A DNA stretch of 64,000 nt from Kangiella aquimarina DSM 16071 (GTDB lineage: Bacteria; Pseudomonadota; Gammaproteobacteria; Enterobacterales; Kangiellaceae). Both the position numbers and the translations under genes were made by a program. The notes under the pieces are model-generated. The model had not been told where the DNA came from. It saw nothing but the letters and a program-made list of their open reading frames with translations, and made no database searches. Location: contig NZ_KB893651.1 of assembly GCF_000374105.1 (NCBI RefSeq), positions 25,838 to 89,837 of the forward strand. The letters are read 5' to 3'. Below are positions 47,100 to 52,770 of this stretch, piece after piece. Numbering within the stretch: position 1 is the first letter of the stretch; each line of letters begins with the position of its first letter.

Positions 47100-47115
47100 T
47101 TCCCAAATTTGGGAA
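47100..47115. repeat. 16-bp perfect palindrome
   Basis: TTCCCAAATTTGGGAA. No loop or T-run, so a protein-binding site is more plausible than a terminator. It is 28 bases after the DUF937 gene and about 240 bases before the sigma-54 promoter. Confidence 0.7.
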
Positions 47116-47184: not shown

Positions 47185-47204
47185 CTGTATCACAATCGGA
47201 ACAG
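47185..47204. promoter_or_regulatory. Candidate upstream activating site 1
   Basis: CTGTATCACAATCGGAACAG: imperfect dyad CTGTNNC-N6-GNAACAG. Same architecture as the second site at 47,260. About 160 bp upstream of the -24 element. Confidence 0.6.
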
Positions 47205-47259
47205 CTCAAATTCTTTCAACTCACTGATAAATAATAGGTTTCATAATTTGTACAGAATG

Positions 47260-47279
47260 CTGTTCCATGTTTGAAACAG
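47260..47279. promoter_or_regulatory. Candidate upstream activating site 2
   Basis: CTGTTCCATGTTTGAAACAG: CTGTNNC-N6-GNAACAG dyad, arms pair with one mismatch. Centre is 75 bp from that of site 1, near seven helical turns, and about 85 bp upstream of the -24 GG. Position is typical of enhancer-binding-protein sites. Confidence 0.65.
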
Positions 47280-47353: not shown

Positions 47354-47370
47354 TGGCACGCTCCTTGCTT
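47354..47370 (+). promoter_or_regulatory. Sigma-54 promoter (-24/-12)
   Basis: TGGCACGCTCCTTGCTT: the -24 GG at 47355-47356 and -12 GC at 47367-47368, an essentially consensus match to TGGCACG-N4-TTGCW. Predicted start near 47380, 73 bases before the ATG of the secreted-protein gene. Confidence 0.85.
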
Positions 47371-47452: not shown

Positions 47453-49180
47453 ATGAACATTAAACGATGGACGCTTGCCTGTTCGATGGCGTTATTTACT
47501 GCAACCAGTGCCTTTGCATTGGACCCGGCTGATAGCGTGGAATTGGACGGTAACGCGATAAAAGACACAGCTCTGGATGATTGGCAAAATATCAATTTAG
47601 GTGTGAGTTCTGCCGCGGTTGCCACTGGTGTGGTTAGCGATTTACCACCTGCAACTATATTTTGGAAAGGTGGCTCGAAGGATACGGAAGATGTCACTCA
47701 GTGGTGGTACAAAGATGGTGCCGTCCCTGATAAAGATGATTTAAGAAATGGTTATGCAGCTGCTTATTTTCTTCCAAAAATGGGTGGCGGTAATGACCTG
47801 GTCTTTTACTTCGGTGCGGAACGTTACGCAAATAATGGTGATGCGATTATGGGCTTCTGGTTCTTCCAGGACGTGGTAGGTCCTGATGGAAACAACCGCT
47901 TCACCGGAGAGCACAAAGAGAATGATTTATTTATTGTGATGGAATACCCTCAGGGCACTAATGCTCAGCCATTCGTACAAGTGATGCGCTGGGTCAATGG
48001 TGGCGGCGACGTCGATGATAATTTACAACTGTTATATTCTTCAGGCGACGCAGGTTCCAAATGTAATACGGCTACTGACTCAGGTGTAGCCTGTGCGATT
48101 ACCAATGACAACCAAGAGTTGGCAGGAGTGGCGAACGGTTTGTGGCCTTATGAGAACAAATCGGGAATCCCTGATGCCTATCCTCATGAATCACTGTTTG
48201 AAGGACGGTTAAATGTGACTCAGGCACTGCTGAATGCAGGGATAAGTGAAGTTCCTTGCTTCAGTAGTTTCCTGATCGAAACTCGTTCTTCACGCTCTGA
48301 GACTGCACAGTTGAAAGACTTCCTTGGAGGTCAGTTCCCTTTGTGTAGTATTGAGGTAGCGAAAACCTGTAGCGCTTCTGCCTTAACCGCCGATAACAAG
48401 TTCACCATTGATTACACCATTAGCCTGACCAATTCAGGTGTTGGTAGCATTGGTGCAGGTGAAATCATCACCATTGATGACCAGCCAAGTGACGGTGCGG
48501 CATTCCAATTAACTCCTGCAGTTAGCAGCTTAACCGGTGGTGCTGATGGTTGGGCACCCAATGAAGTACTGCAAGTTTCAGGGCAATATGTCTCTGATGT
48601 TAACGGTGGCATGAATACCGTTGACGCTTCGGTAACCTTCGGTAGTTCGAGTATTACAGCAGATCAATACACAACAGGTTGTGATTCGCTATCACTCTCT
48701 CCTGCGATCTCAATCGTCAAACAGTGTGATCTGTCGTTAACTCAAACCGGTAACCTGGTAGCAGTGCAAAAAGACTATTCAGTTGATGTCTGCAACACCG
48801 GTGATACACCACTTGATGTGATCTTAACTGATAATAAGGATTTAGCCTTGAATGAAAGCTTCTCGCTCGATTTCCCTAAAACCTGTCTGATTGATGTTGA
48901 TTGTGGTGCAGGTTATACCTGTAATGCTGGTGGCTTCTGTGAAGATGGAGACGGATTCCTAGAAGGTAACTTCGGTGGAAATGTCTGTGAAACTCGAACA
49001 GGAACCTACCTACCATCAGAACTACCTGTTGGTACTGATGGTAACCTTACTAACCAGGCTTCGGTTTCTGCAACATCACCTGTTGCGGCCCCTGGTGATA
49101 TCGGCTCTGCATCGAATCCGATTCAGGATTCTGATTCAGCAACCTGTGACTTGTGCCCTCTACCTCAACCAGAGGAGTAA
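47453..49180 (+). CDS. Secreted protein of unknown function under sigma-54 control
   Basis: 575 residues. Sec signal peptide (1-22, ending AFA). The mature protein starts acidic (LDPADSVELDGNAIKD) and has an N-terminal domain of about 270 residues with aromatic strands (VTQWWYKDGA, FYFGAERYANNGD). Two similar immunoglobulin-like segments follow, the first with VAKTCSASALTADNKFTIDY and the second with IVKQCDLSLTQTGNLVAVQK, resembling DUF11-type repeats. Then a Cys-rich knot (C478...CEDGDG) and a CDLC end. No LPxTG, lipobox or PEP-CTERM anchor, so probably released or matrix-bound. Strong AAGGAGGA ribosome-binding site. Confidence 0.85.
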   Translation: MNIKRWTLACSMALFTATSAFALDPADSVELDGNAIKDTALDDWQNINLGVSSAAVATGVVSDLPPATIFWKGGSKDTEDVTQWWYKDGAVPDKDDLRNGYAAAYFLPKMGGGNDLVFYFGAERYANNGDAIMGFWFFQDVVGPDGNNRFTGEHKENDLFIVMEYPQGTNAQPFVQVMRWVNGGGDVDDNLQLLYSSGDAGSKCNTATDSGVACAITNDNQELAGVANGLWPYENKSGIPDAYPHESLFEGRLNVTQALLNAGISEVPCFSSFLIETRSSRSETAQLKDFLGGQFPLCSIEVAKTCSASALTADNKFTIDYTISLTNSGVGSIGAGEIITIDDQPSDGAAFQLTPAVSSLTGGADGWAPNEVLQVSGQYVSDVNGGMNTVDASVTFGSSSITADQYTTGCDSLSLSPAISIVKQCDLSLTQTGNLVAVQKDYSVDVCNTGDTPLDVILTDNKDLALNESFSLDFPKTCLIDVDCGAGYTCNAGGFCEDGDGFLEGNFGGNVCETRTGTYLPSELPVGTDGNLTNQASVSATSPVAAPGDIGSASNPIQDSDSATCDLCPLPQPEE

Positions 49181-49252: not shown

Positions 49253-51259
49253 TTATTTATTTCTACCGCCACCTTTGTTTCCGCCTTTACCCCCTCCAGT
49301 TGTGGAGTCCGAATTGTCACCAGTTCCGCTATCAAGACTGACTTGAACAGTTGCACTAGTGGTTAGCTTTCCATCACTGATGGTATAGCTGAAACTATCA
49401 GTGTCCTTAAAAGGTTTACCGGGAATGTAAGTTAAACTGTTGTCAGAATTTAAAATAACATCGCCTTTAGAACCTTGTTCAACACCGACAATGGTCAGGT
49501 TATCGCCATCTGGATCGTAGTCATTGGTTAATGGGGCAAAGGTGATACTGTTTTTGCTGGGTAATATCACCGTATCGTTTACAGCAACCGGAGCACTGTT
49601 ACTGACAGCTGTCTGCGCTTCAACAATTACTGAAGCATTATGCTGATCGAACTGCGATGTCTGACCATGAGACACTTTACTGGTAACAGCATAGTCGCCT
49701 GATGGAGCACTAGCATCAACTGCAAGTGATAAGCTGATTTCCTGACTTGCGCCCGGTGCCAGACTGATATTCGAATAATTAAAACTACCGTTGATATAGC
49801 TATCTGTGCTTGAAGATAGATTAAAGGTTGAAGAGCTACACTCAGCACTATCACGATTGGTGACTGTGTAAACAATTTCTAAGTTACTGCCAGCTGTGGT
49901 TGCTACAGATGTACTACTGACTGGTTCAATAGATGGAGCCTGATTCTGACAAATCGCAGGAGCCTGTCCGTAATTTACCTGAACTACAGCACTGCCCGCA
50001 TCGCTGGCAGCCAGAGTTATGCTGACGTCATTAACTGAGTCATGATAAGTCTGCCCAGGCTGCAAAGTGATATCCGTCCAGCTCAAGGTTTCTGGCGTGG
50101 TATCCAAAAGATAACTATCGTTAGGAGCATTGTCGGTTCCTTCGCGCAAACGAACACCCGTTAGAAACTGTGGGTAATTGTCTGCAAGGTGTGCATCAAA
50201 ACCAATCGCCTGACGATATTCAACGTAGTACCACTCGTTCTGGCCGGTGCTTTTAGTCTGCTTAAAAATTTTCGCAACCTTGGTATTGCTATCATTGGTT
50301 TCAAGTGGTGATAAAACTACTTCTGTGCTTTGCGTGATAGTTGTAACTTTGTTATTCATCCAGCCTAACTGTTCTTTCTGGAAAGCATTAAAATGATTCG
50401 TTTCACGAGCGTTACCCATGCCACTGATGTAGTCACCGTAATCACCTACTGCACAACCAGAGTCTGCCGTAACTTGAGTACCACAGTCTTTGCTGTGTGC
50501 ATGATAAAGACCAAGGTTATGCCCCAGCTCATGGTGGACAACATCCGACTCAAATCTTTTGATCCATGAAAGCGGACCTTGCACATTGGCCTTGCCTGAC
50601 CAGGTGCAGTTTGGGTGCGTTGGGATCACATACATCACATGATCATAATTTGTTGGCTCATAGCCCCTTTGACGAATGACTGCATCAGCTGCATTACTGA
50701 TCGCATAGGTATCACAGGTACTGACATCAACATCAACAGTAATTGGTTCCAAAGCCTGTCCGGTTAAACCAAACTGCTGATAGGAACTTTCCATAAAATA
50801 CTGGTGTGCAGTATTAAATAACGTGTCGTAAAGTTGAGCCGAAGTAAAACGCACAATGGGGTTGATGGCAAAGTTGATTTCGGCCACCAGTAATTGATGA
50901 GTACCTGAAACTGTACTCGCCTGAGTCGTAGCCTGTGTTGTTGAGCTTGAAGACTCATCAAGTAATAAACTCACTGAGTCAGGAGAAGCTTTTAGCTTAC
51001 CCTTGTCAAACTGACCGTGAATTCTGACTTTCTGATTGGAGGCTAACCAATGTGGAACTTTATCAAATACCACCTCGGTAGCTTTTCCCTGACTGTTAAC
51101 CAGTCGATAAGACAGTTCACTTCGCTTATTCGCGAAGTCATCTTCAATGTTGATTGTAATGGTTCCTTCCACGACATTATCCTTTGCAAAGCTCCCTGCA
51201 CTAAATAAAGACACAAAGATGCCCGCAGACGCTAACGCGCCTTTTAAAAGATAATTCAT
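49253..51259 (-). CDS. Secreted gametolysin-like (M11-type) zinc metalloprotease
   Basis: 668 residues. Signal peptide about 1-25. The catalytic zinc motif is HELGHNLGLYH, giving His243, Glu244, His247, Gly250, His253, followed by a Met-turn candidate SGMGNA (Met281), the metzincin pattern and the gametolysin/M11 spacing. Downstream: a domain with conserved Tyr/Trp (WYYVEYR), an alpha-galactosidase-NEW3-like Ig region (residues about 450-550), and a cadherin-like Ig domain with NDTVILPSKNSITF and NDYDPDGDNLTIV. Ser/Thr-rich stretch after residue 100; basic Gly/Lys tail. Cells may use it to cut matrix or surface proteins. Confidence 0.88.
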   Translation of the reverse strand: MNYLLKGALASAGIFVSLFSAGSFAKDNVVEGTITINIEDDFANKRSELSYRLVNSQGKATEVVFDKVPHWLASNQKVRIHGQFDKGKLKASPDSVSLLLDESSSSTTQATTQASTVSGTHQLLVAEINFAINPIVRFTSAQLYDTLFNTAHQYFMESSYQQFGLTGQALEPITVDVDVSTCDTYAISNAADAVIRQRGYEPTNYDHVMYVIPTHPNCTWSGKANVQGPLSWIKRFESDVVHHELGHNLGLYHAHSKDCGTQVTADSGCAVGDYGDYISGMGNARETNHFNAFQKEQLGWMNNKVTTITQSTEVVLSPLETNDSNTKVAKIFKQTKSTGQNEWYYVEYRQAIGFDAHLADNYPQFLTGVRLREGTDNAPNDSYLLDTTPETLSWTDITLQPGQTYHDSVNDVSITLAASDAGSAVVQVNYGQAPAICQNQAPSIEPVSSTSVATTAGSNLEIVYTVTNRDSAECSSSTFNLSSSTDSYINGSFNYSNISLAPGASQEISLSLAVDASAPSGDYAVTSKVSHGQTSQFDQHNASVIVEAQTAVSNSAPVAVNDTVILPSKNSITFAPLTNDYDPDGDNLTIVGVEQGSKGDVILNSDNSLTYIPGKPFKDTDSFSYTISDGKLTTSATVQVSLDSGTGDNSDSTTGGGKGGNKGGGRNK

Positions 51260-51423: not shown

Positions 51424-52770
51424 TTACATAGGGATGTTATGTTTATTTAACAGCCGATAGAGGCTGGTTCTTGAGATACCCAGATTTTTAGCGGCTAAAG
51501 TGTGATTGTAGCCGGATTTCTCAATAGAAAGAATCAGAGTTTCTTTCTCTGCTTTGTCTTTAGCCTCTTTTAGACTGACAATATTCTGGTGGTTGCTGAA
51601 AGACAGATCCATGTGCTTTTCGGTAATTAAATTGCCTTCTGATAAAATGACAGCCCGTCGAATTCGGTTCATTAATTCCCGCACATTGCCAGGCCAGCGG
51701 TATTGATTCATAGCATTCAAACAACGCTGTGTGAAAGTTTTATGCATATGCCCTTCGCAGAACTGGCTTAAGAAATGATTAGCAAGTTCAGGAATATCCT
51801 GACGACGATGACGAAGAGCTGGCATGTGCAATGTCAGTACATTAATACGATGATATAAATCTTCGCGAAACAATCCATCTTCAACTGCTTTCTCAAGGTT
51901 AACGTTGGTTGCAACGATAATGCGGCAATCAACGGTAATACTTTTGACGCTGCCTAACCGTTCGATTTGGTTTAACTCAAGAAAGCGTAATAAATTAACT
52001 TGAAGGTTAAGCGGGAGATCGCCAATTTCATCCAGAAAGACAGTACCGCCATCAGCTGCTTCAATCCGTCCAATTTTTTTGCTGTCGGCGTTGGTAAAAG
52101 CGCCTTTCTCATTACCAAACAATTCTGAGTAAAACAAAGTCTCGGGTATGGCTGCGCAATTAATAGCAATAAATGGCCCTTGGTTGCGTTTAGAGCGCTG
52201 ATGAATTTTTCTGGCAGCCAGTTCTTTGCCAGTACCGCTTTCACCAGTGATAAGTACAGTCGCATCTTCCATCGCAATTTTATTAATGTTGCGTTTGATT
52301 AGAGCCGTTGCTGGGGAGCGACCAATAATATCATCACTGTCCTGAGGCACCTGAAGCTGATTAAGCTGTTTGTTTTGTAACTCAGCCATGCCAAAAGCAT
52401 GGCCAACGGTTGCTAGAAAATAATCGTAACGCAGAGGCTCACGATGGTAATCATAAAACAGGTGTGAAAAGAGAAAGTTTGGATGGTCTTCCAGCCAGTT
52501 TTCATGAGGAATAATGGCTATCCATTTTGTCGCCATATTTAGTGAAGCTAACTCTTCATATTCAGTAATAATAGGCTCAGGTTCTGCAGATAAAAAAATG
52601 ACAACGACTTCAAAAAGATGGTGCTGAAAGAGTTTCTTAAACTGACTTTTTTCCTGAGTGAAAAAAATTTGCCAGCCATTATCTTTGAGCTGCTCACTGA
52701 GTTCCTGGGCGGAGTCGCCTTTACCGAAAATGAGGATCGAGCGACTTTCATGTGGAGAGTGGTCAAGCAT
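51424..52770 (-). CDS. VpsR-like AAA+ enhancer-binding transcriptional regulator
   Basis: 448 residues. N-terminal pseudo-receiver (about 10-130) without phosphorylatable Asp (strand reads FEVVVIFLSAE), with the family-style FYDYHREPLRYDYFLATVGH. AAA+ domain: Walker A GESGTGKE (176-183), the L1 loop GAFTNA (223-228, canonical GAFTGA), Walker B TVFLDEIG (243-250), arginine finger around FREDLYHR. Fis-type HTH at 421-446 (TLAAKNLGISRTSLYRLLNK). Close to Vibrio VpsR, which regulates exopolysaccharide with c-di-GMP. GGGAGGCAAGG ribosome-binding region precedes the ATG at 52768-52770. Adjacent, same-strand metalloprotease lies 164 bases downstream. Confidence 0.88.
   Translation of the reverse strand: MLDHSPHESRSILIFGKGDSAQELSEQLKDNGWQIFFTQEKSQFKKLFQHHLFEVVVIFLSAEPEPIITEYEELASLNMATKWIAIIPHENWLEDHPNFLFSHLFYDYHREPLRYDYFLATVGHAFGMAELQNKQLNQLQVPQDSDDIIGRSPATALIKRNINKIAMEDATVLITGESGTGKELAARKIHQRSKRNQGPFIAINCAAIPETLFYSELFGNEKGAFTNADSKKIGRIEAADGGTVFLDEIGDLPLNLQVNLLRFLELNQIERLGSVKSITVDCRIIVATNVNLEKAVEDGLFREDLYHRINVLTLHMPALRHRRQDIPELANHFLSQFCEGHMHKTFTQRCLNAMNQYRWPGNVRELMNRIRRAVILSEGNLITEKHMDLSFSNHQNIVSLKEAKDKAEKETLILSIEKSGYNHTLAAKNLGISRTSLYRLLNKHNIPM

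Follow-up and report, generated by a model that had tools for sequence, protein, structure and literature searches.

Paired conserved dyads upstream of a sigma-54 promoter in Kangiella as probable enhancer sites of a VpsR-domain activator

Introduction

A stretch of 64,000 nucleotides from Kangiella aquimarina DSM 16071 (64 kb, hereafter the window) carries two similar 20-bp dyads in front of a -24/-12 promoter. This raises the question of which protein binds the dyads and which gene is controlled through them. The original prediction read them as paired enhancer sites and named an adjacent VpsR-like regulator as the obvious, though unproven, binder. Based on comparative sequence analysis, we consider it likely (probability about 0.8) that the dyads are paired enhancer sites for the VpsR-domain activator encoded at 51424..52770, which would switch on a secreted DUF7507 protein. 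A motif noticed by eye would thereby yield a prediction of the DNA sites that sigma-54 activators with a VpsR domain bind. The best-known member of this family reportedly works without sigma-54. In the open-licence literature, searched by title and the start of the abstract, we found no description of such a module of dyad, activator and secreted target.

Two dyads precede a consensus sigma-54 promoter

The distal putative enhancer site, CTGTATCACAATCGGAACAG, is located at 47185..47204 and the proximal one, CTGTTCCATGTTTGAAACAG, at 47260..47279, both as exact matches on the plus strand. Downstream of them, a sigma-54 promoter, TGGCACGCTCCTTGC, matches the -24/-12 consensus exactly at 47354..47368 (plus strand). 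As originally described, the dyad centres are 75 bp apart and lie about 85 and about 160 bp from the -24 element. By arithmetic with 10.5 bp per helical turn, the spacing of 75 bp corresponds to about 7.1 turns and the 94 bp from the second dyad to TGGC to about 9.0 turns, which is consistent with binding on the same face of the helix. The promoter is one of four exact copies of TGGCAC-N5-TTGC in the genome; up to one mismatch, this pattern gives 254 matches versus 100 for the reversed control. The genome encodes sigma-54, with one match to PF04552.

The pattern first proposed for the dyads, CTGTNNC-N6-GNAACAG, was searched genome-wide. In its exact form it occurs at only these two places in the whole 2.68-Mb genome (reported in three rows, because the second site is readable on both strands), but allowing up to one mismatch brings it close to background, with 50 matches versus 40 for the reversed control. 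The pattern alone is therefore weak evidence, and it is clustering and conservation that carry the case. A leave-out matrix was built from six sites of the Kangiella genomes G002, G010 and G009, without G000 and G004. In the 64-kb window its best match was the proximal dyad (47260, score 23.7) and its second-best the distal dyad (47185, 16.6). The third-best match (12.4) is a tentative weak third site between both dyads, AGGTTTCATAATTTGTACAG, at 47236..47255 on the plus strand, whose conservation, judged by eye in the alignment of five Kangiella genomes, is only partial. Elsewhere in the window the score was at most 11.6.

A perfect 16-bp palindrome, TTCCCAAATTTGGGAA, was also observed at 47100-47115, 27 bp past a DUF937 gene and followed by no T-run. 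G004 has it too, and G002 and G010 have part of it.

The dyads are conserved at fixed spacing within Kangiella

Of 20 Kangiella genomes, 5 contain an orthologue of the gene behind the promoter, hereafter the target. Upstream of the orthologues in G004, G002, G010 and G009 the dyads are kept at fixed spacing, in degenerate form in G009. The distance from site to site is 75 bp in four Kangiella genomes and 74 bp in G009, and that from the second site to TGGC is 94 bp and 93 bp, respectively. The promoter itself (TGGCA...TTGC) is aligned in all five genomes. The half-sites of the other four genomes share 69-81% identity with the window, against 44-63% for the remaining upstream columns. When a two-site comb was slid over the upstream part of the five-genome alignment, as many invariant columns were reached in 12 of 19,306 placements, and its mean conservation was equalled in 2 of 19,306.

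The dyad symmetry is imperfect. Among the ten sites, 3 to 7 of 8 arm positions are complementary, and several Kangiella copies are poorly symmetric. G004, G002 and G009 do not retain the exact form of the first pattern. A refined consensus of about CTGTTYCA-N4-TGRAACAG, that of a matrix derived from Kangiella sites only, describes the sites better.

The target gene faces a convergent metalloprotease gene

The target open reading frame (47453..49180, plus strand), characterized by Pfam and its homologues, starts 84 bp past the promoter. It encodes a secreted protein of 575 aa with a signal-peptide-like N-terminus, a DUF7507 domain and a C-terminal CxxCP tail, and the secreted product is probably located at the surface or in the matrix. 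Assigning its function by fold was not successful: the structural model was moderate (mean pLDDT 64.3), and Foldseek returned multi-domain matches with low TM-score. The only sequence matches among solved structures were two short inhibitors, with E-values of 0.65 and 0.85. The fold evidence was used only for the description as a beta-rich secreted protein.

Convergent to the target, a gene at 49253..51259 (minus strand) encodes a secreted metalloprotease with a Peptidase_M11 match and the motif HELGHNLGLYH. The CxxCP tail ends 20 of the 26 target homologues inspected, and HExxHxxGxxH together with a glycine-rich, basic C-terminus was seen in all 14 proteases inspected. These tails and the convergent gene order suggest, as a hypothesis, that target and protease work together, possibly as a matched processing pair.

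Control of the protease or of the regulator by the same kind of sites was considered and rejected, since in the window the 400 bp upstream of them contain no dyad with a score of at least 8 and no -24/-12 candidate. Weak dyad matches occur in some relatives, upstream of the protease gene of L174 (score 10.3) and the regulator gene of L175 (9.4).

The motif recurs at homologous loci in other genera

Of 295 genomes of the order, 21 (including 4 from Kangiella) contained a target homologue. At class level, 2 of 369 genomes had one at E<=1e-20, one being the window's own. The homologues named among 14 loci belong to Shewanella, Vibrio, Pseudomonas and one Anaerolineales MAG. For the neighbour survey we used 26 non-Kangiella loci, 24 of them distinct (L190 was counted once with L137, and L193 with L134, as the contigs of each pair are equally long). 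Perhaps, by our own estimate, these 24 represent six or seven lineages.

A matrix derived from Kangiella sites only recovered the motif in front of the homologues from Shewanella, Pseudomonas and further families. Against dinucleotide shuffles, 15 of 24 upstream regions reached p<=0.01, in a test for which some -24 positions were assigned by us from weak candidates and two loci (L111 and L121) had none. Compared with 761 real 400-bp tiles of the same loci, 16 of 24 loci reached an empirical p<0.05, and the upstream regions as a group gave a one-sided Mann-Whitney value of 3e-10, to be read with the loci not being independent. Among the matching non-Kangiella loci the dyad lies 71 to 297 bp from the -24 candidate.

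The tile comparison gave no match at this level in 8 of 24 loci (L134, L135, L137, L139, L182, L188, L189 and L192). Four of them are Vibrio-type loci (L135, L137, L139 and L189) with target and activator present and the Kangiella motif absent. By eye, a TGTCT-N5-AGACA-like palindrome was noted upstream of the target in the Vibrio loci L135, L136, L137 and L139, and it may be a diverged site.

Of the 24 distinct loci, 19 carry a gene for a sigma-54 activator close to the target, as judged by a BLAST comparison that would match any sigma-54 activator; in the other five (L141, L184, L187, L188 and L192) there was none in the examined stretch. A metalloprotease gene is found near the target in 13 of 24, convergent with the target homologue every time. 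The VpsR domain scored over the cut-off in 6 of 8 non-Kangiella regulators scanned, and in both Kangiella proteins scanned alongside. The remaining two were the L135 regulator, with a match below the cut-off, and the L138 regulator, cut by the end of its locus, with none. Taken together, the conserved dyads, the cross-genus motif and the activator near most targets support the layout of an enhancer pair.

The regulator loses its sigma-54 loop where the target is absent

The proposed binder is encoded at 51424..52770 on the minus strand and combines Pfam matches to Sigma54_activat, VpsR and HTH_8, the last a Fis-type HTH. Its VpsR domain (PF20161) scores 39.5 bits against a curated cut-off of 23.7. 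For VpsR itself, a response to c-di-GMP has been reported. The gene is not directly adjacent to the dyads, but about 4 kb downstream, past the target and the protease. The ATPase motifs are intact (Walker A GESGTGKE, Walker B GGTVFLDE), and the sigma-54-contacting loop reads GAFTNA. Two more specific identities were rejected: as PrsR (TIGR02915) it scores 374.1 bits, below the family cut-off of 502.6 and over residues 105-446 only, and as NorR (NF003451) 305 bits, below the cut-off of 476.

In all five Kangiella genomes with the target, the regulator beside it keeps Walker A, GAFTNA and Walker B. Four further genomes (G016, G017, G018 and G007) have retained the regulator at its syntenic place, while the target is absent from the genome and the protease from the locus. 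In all four the GAFTGA-type loop is lost, and the HTH is still similar. No dyad pair was found at these four loci; at a score of at least 12, G017 and G007 had no site, G018 had one and G016 one weak one. G016 lost the loop in another way than G017, G018 and G007, whose Walker B is altered as well. In the regulator tree the loop-less proteins fall on two branches, the trio with a support of 1.0 and G016 joined to the target-bearing clade with 0.876. Together with the intact modules outside Kangiella, two loop losses are the simplest reading. Kangiella offers a natural experiment, in which the loop has decayed where target, protease and dyad pair are missing and the DNA-binding helix is still similar. 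Since an activator accompanies the target at most loci and the loop is lost in every one of these Kangiella regulators where the target is absent, a VpsR-like binder is supported.

At the fifth position of the GAFTGA motif the Kangiella proteins have N, and D is found in Shewanella mangrovi, in ANA-3 and in two genomes of one further family (G129 and G264). In NorR, 19 substitutions of this glycine have been reported; full constitutive activity was seen with N and D alone, and either variant could still drive open complex formation (PMC2941729). In a survey, D at this loop position is given as the natural residue of FlgR, and N as a putative one (PMC3162934). With GAFTNA and GAFTDA loops occurring naturally in modules that look intact, the constitutive phenotype of NorR can be tested in wild proteins.

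Proposed mechanism and alternative explanations

In the mechanism that we propose, regulator dimers would bind the CTGTTYCA-N4-TGRAACAG sites, 75 bp apart, through the Fis-type HTH. The bound dimers would assemble the AAA+ oligomer and loop the intervening DNA, and the activator would spend ATP to open sigma-54 RNA polymerase at 47354-47368. The opened promoter would then switch on the secreted DUF7507 protein at 47453.

The dyads might be enhancers that are bound by another sigma-54 activator, for example the PrsR-like protein at C1:532477. The genome does contain other activators, with a second match at E<=1e-60 (PrsR-like, L083), and dyads of the same type are present in G015 even though a close orthologue of the regulator is lacking there. 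PrsR-like proteins, however, are present in target-less Kangiella too, whereas the VpsR-like regulator with an intact loop is found only with the target. The recognition helix of PrsR differs as well, and 19 of 24 other loci have an activator beside the target, so we regard another activator as unlikely. A repressor or other non-activator protein sharing the promoter region is a quite improbable binder. The consensus is an ordinary dimer-binding palindrome, and in some Kangiella genomes dyads upstream of collagen-like and small secreted-protein genes come without a convincing -24/-12 element; yet paired sites at a fixed distance upstream of a consensus -24/-12 promoter, recurring 71 to 297 bp upstream of the -24 candidates of homologues, fit enhancers better than operators.

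That two similar inverted repeats were simply picked by eye is very improbable. The near-background count of the first pattern with one mismatch (50 versus 40) would allow for chance, but conservation of half-sites and spacing, recovery by the leave-out matrix and recurrence across genera strongly oppose it.

Tentatively, and with doubt, the activator, the CxxCP-tailed protein and the metalloprotease could form one inherited gammaproteobacterial surface-protein system, with the target matured or released extracellularly by the protease. VpsR-domain regulators might then be ancestrally sigma-54-dependent. The N and D loops might have arisen several times and be constitutive, and loss of the target might have been followed by repeated degeneration into sigma-54-independent regulators, as in VpsR.

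Comparison with known systems

In its architecture the module belongs with known sigma-54 enhancer systems, and conceptually it comes closest to the PEP-CTERM/PrsR cis-regulatory site (Haft et al. 2006, PMC1569441). There, as here, secreted-protein genes follow a predicted activator site and a sigma-54 site, and an NtrC-class activator has a matching phylogenetic profile (PMC1569441). Unlike the window regulator, PrsR is described with a receiver domain, a kinase partner and many PEP-CTERM genes served (PMC1569441), whereas the site of the window regulator appears to mark essentially one promoter.

The regulator resembles VpsR of Vibrio cholerae and BrpR of V. vulnificus as a VpsR-type protein (PMC3162934, PMC8268162). 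BrpR is reported to bind a palindrome, with footprints of 18-21 bp (PMC8268162). VpsR reportedly carries a deletion within GAFTGA and works independently of sigma-54 (PMC3162934), in contrast to the complete loop and consensus -24/-12 promoter in the window. BerB of Burkholderia cenocepacia, beside which VpsR is discussed as a regulator of related type, is also a sigma-54 activator at a biofilm-related promoter; it reportedly has no N-terminal input domain and activates berA, and the excerpted text of PMC5552954 describes no secreted target or protease partner for it (PMC5552954). In the NorR-norVW system, several enhancer sites likewise lie upstream of one sigma-54 promoter and the same loop position matters, but wild-type NorR is described with GAFTGA and a GAF sensor (PMC2941729), whereas the window regulator has a natural N and a VpsR-like input domain.

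Other motif sites in Kangiella

In the five target-bearing Kangiella genomes the refined motif, with up to two mismatches, gave 35 sites versus 6 for the reversed control, an excess that lies mostly in coding sequence; the other fifteen genomes show none (43 versus 43). We examined 28 of the 30 non-module sites in the five genomes and found 25 of these inside open reading frames of at least 90 aa. One more (L159) lies inside an 88-aa open reading frame; two (L156 and L165) lie between genes, where any -24/-12 candidate has two or more mismatches. With 25 of the 28 inside open reading frames, a large Kangiella regulon was rejected. On these counts, the motif seems to mark essentially one promoter, not a dispersed regulon, and the regulator seems to be dedicated to it.

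Dyads of the same type were also observed upstream of a possible second target, a collagen-like DUF7467 gene, in G016 (L194), G009 (L196) and G015 (L195), each followed by TGACA-N5-TGTCA. The dyad is strong in G009 and G016 and weaker in G015, where it occurs despite the missing close regulator orthologue; it is absent upstream of the other 10 of 13 collagen-like homologues examined. Furthermore, G017 (L105) and G018 (L106) carry a one-mismatch dyad at corresponding places upstream of tandem genes for 112-aa secreted proteins. Both of these dyads stand beside a TGACA...TGTCA repeat, in genomes whose regulator is without the sigma-54 loop.
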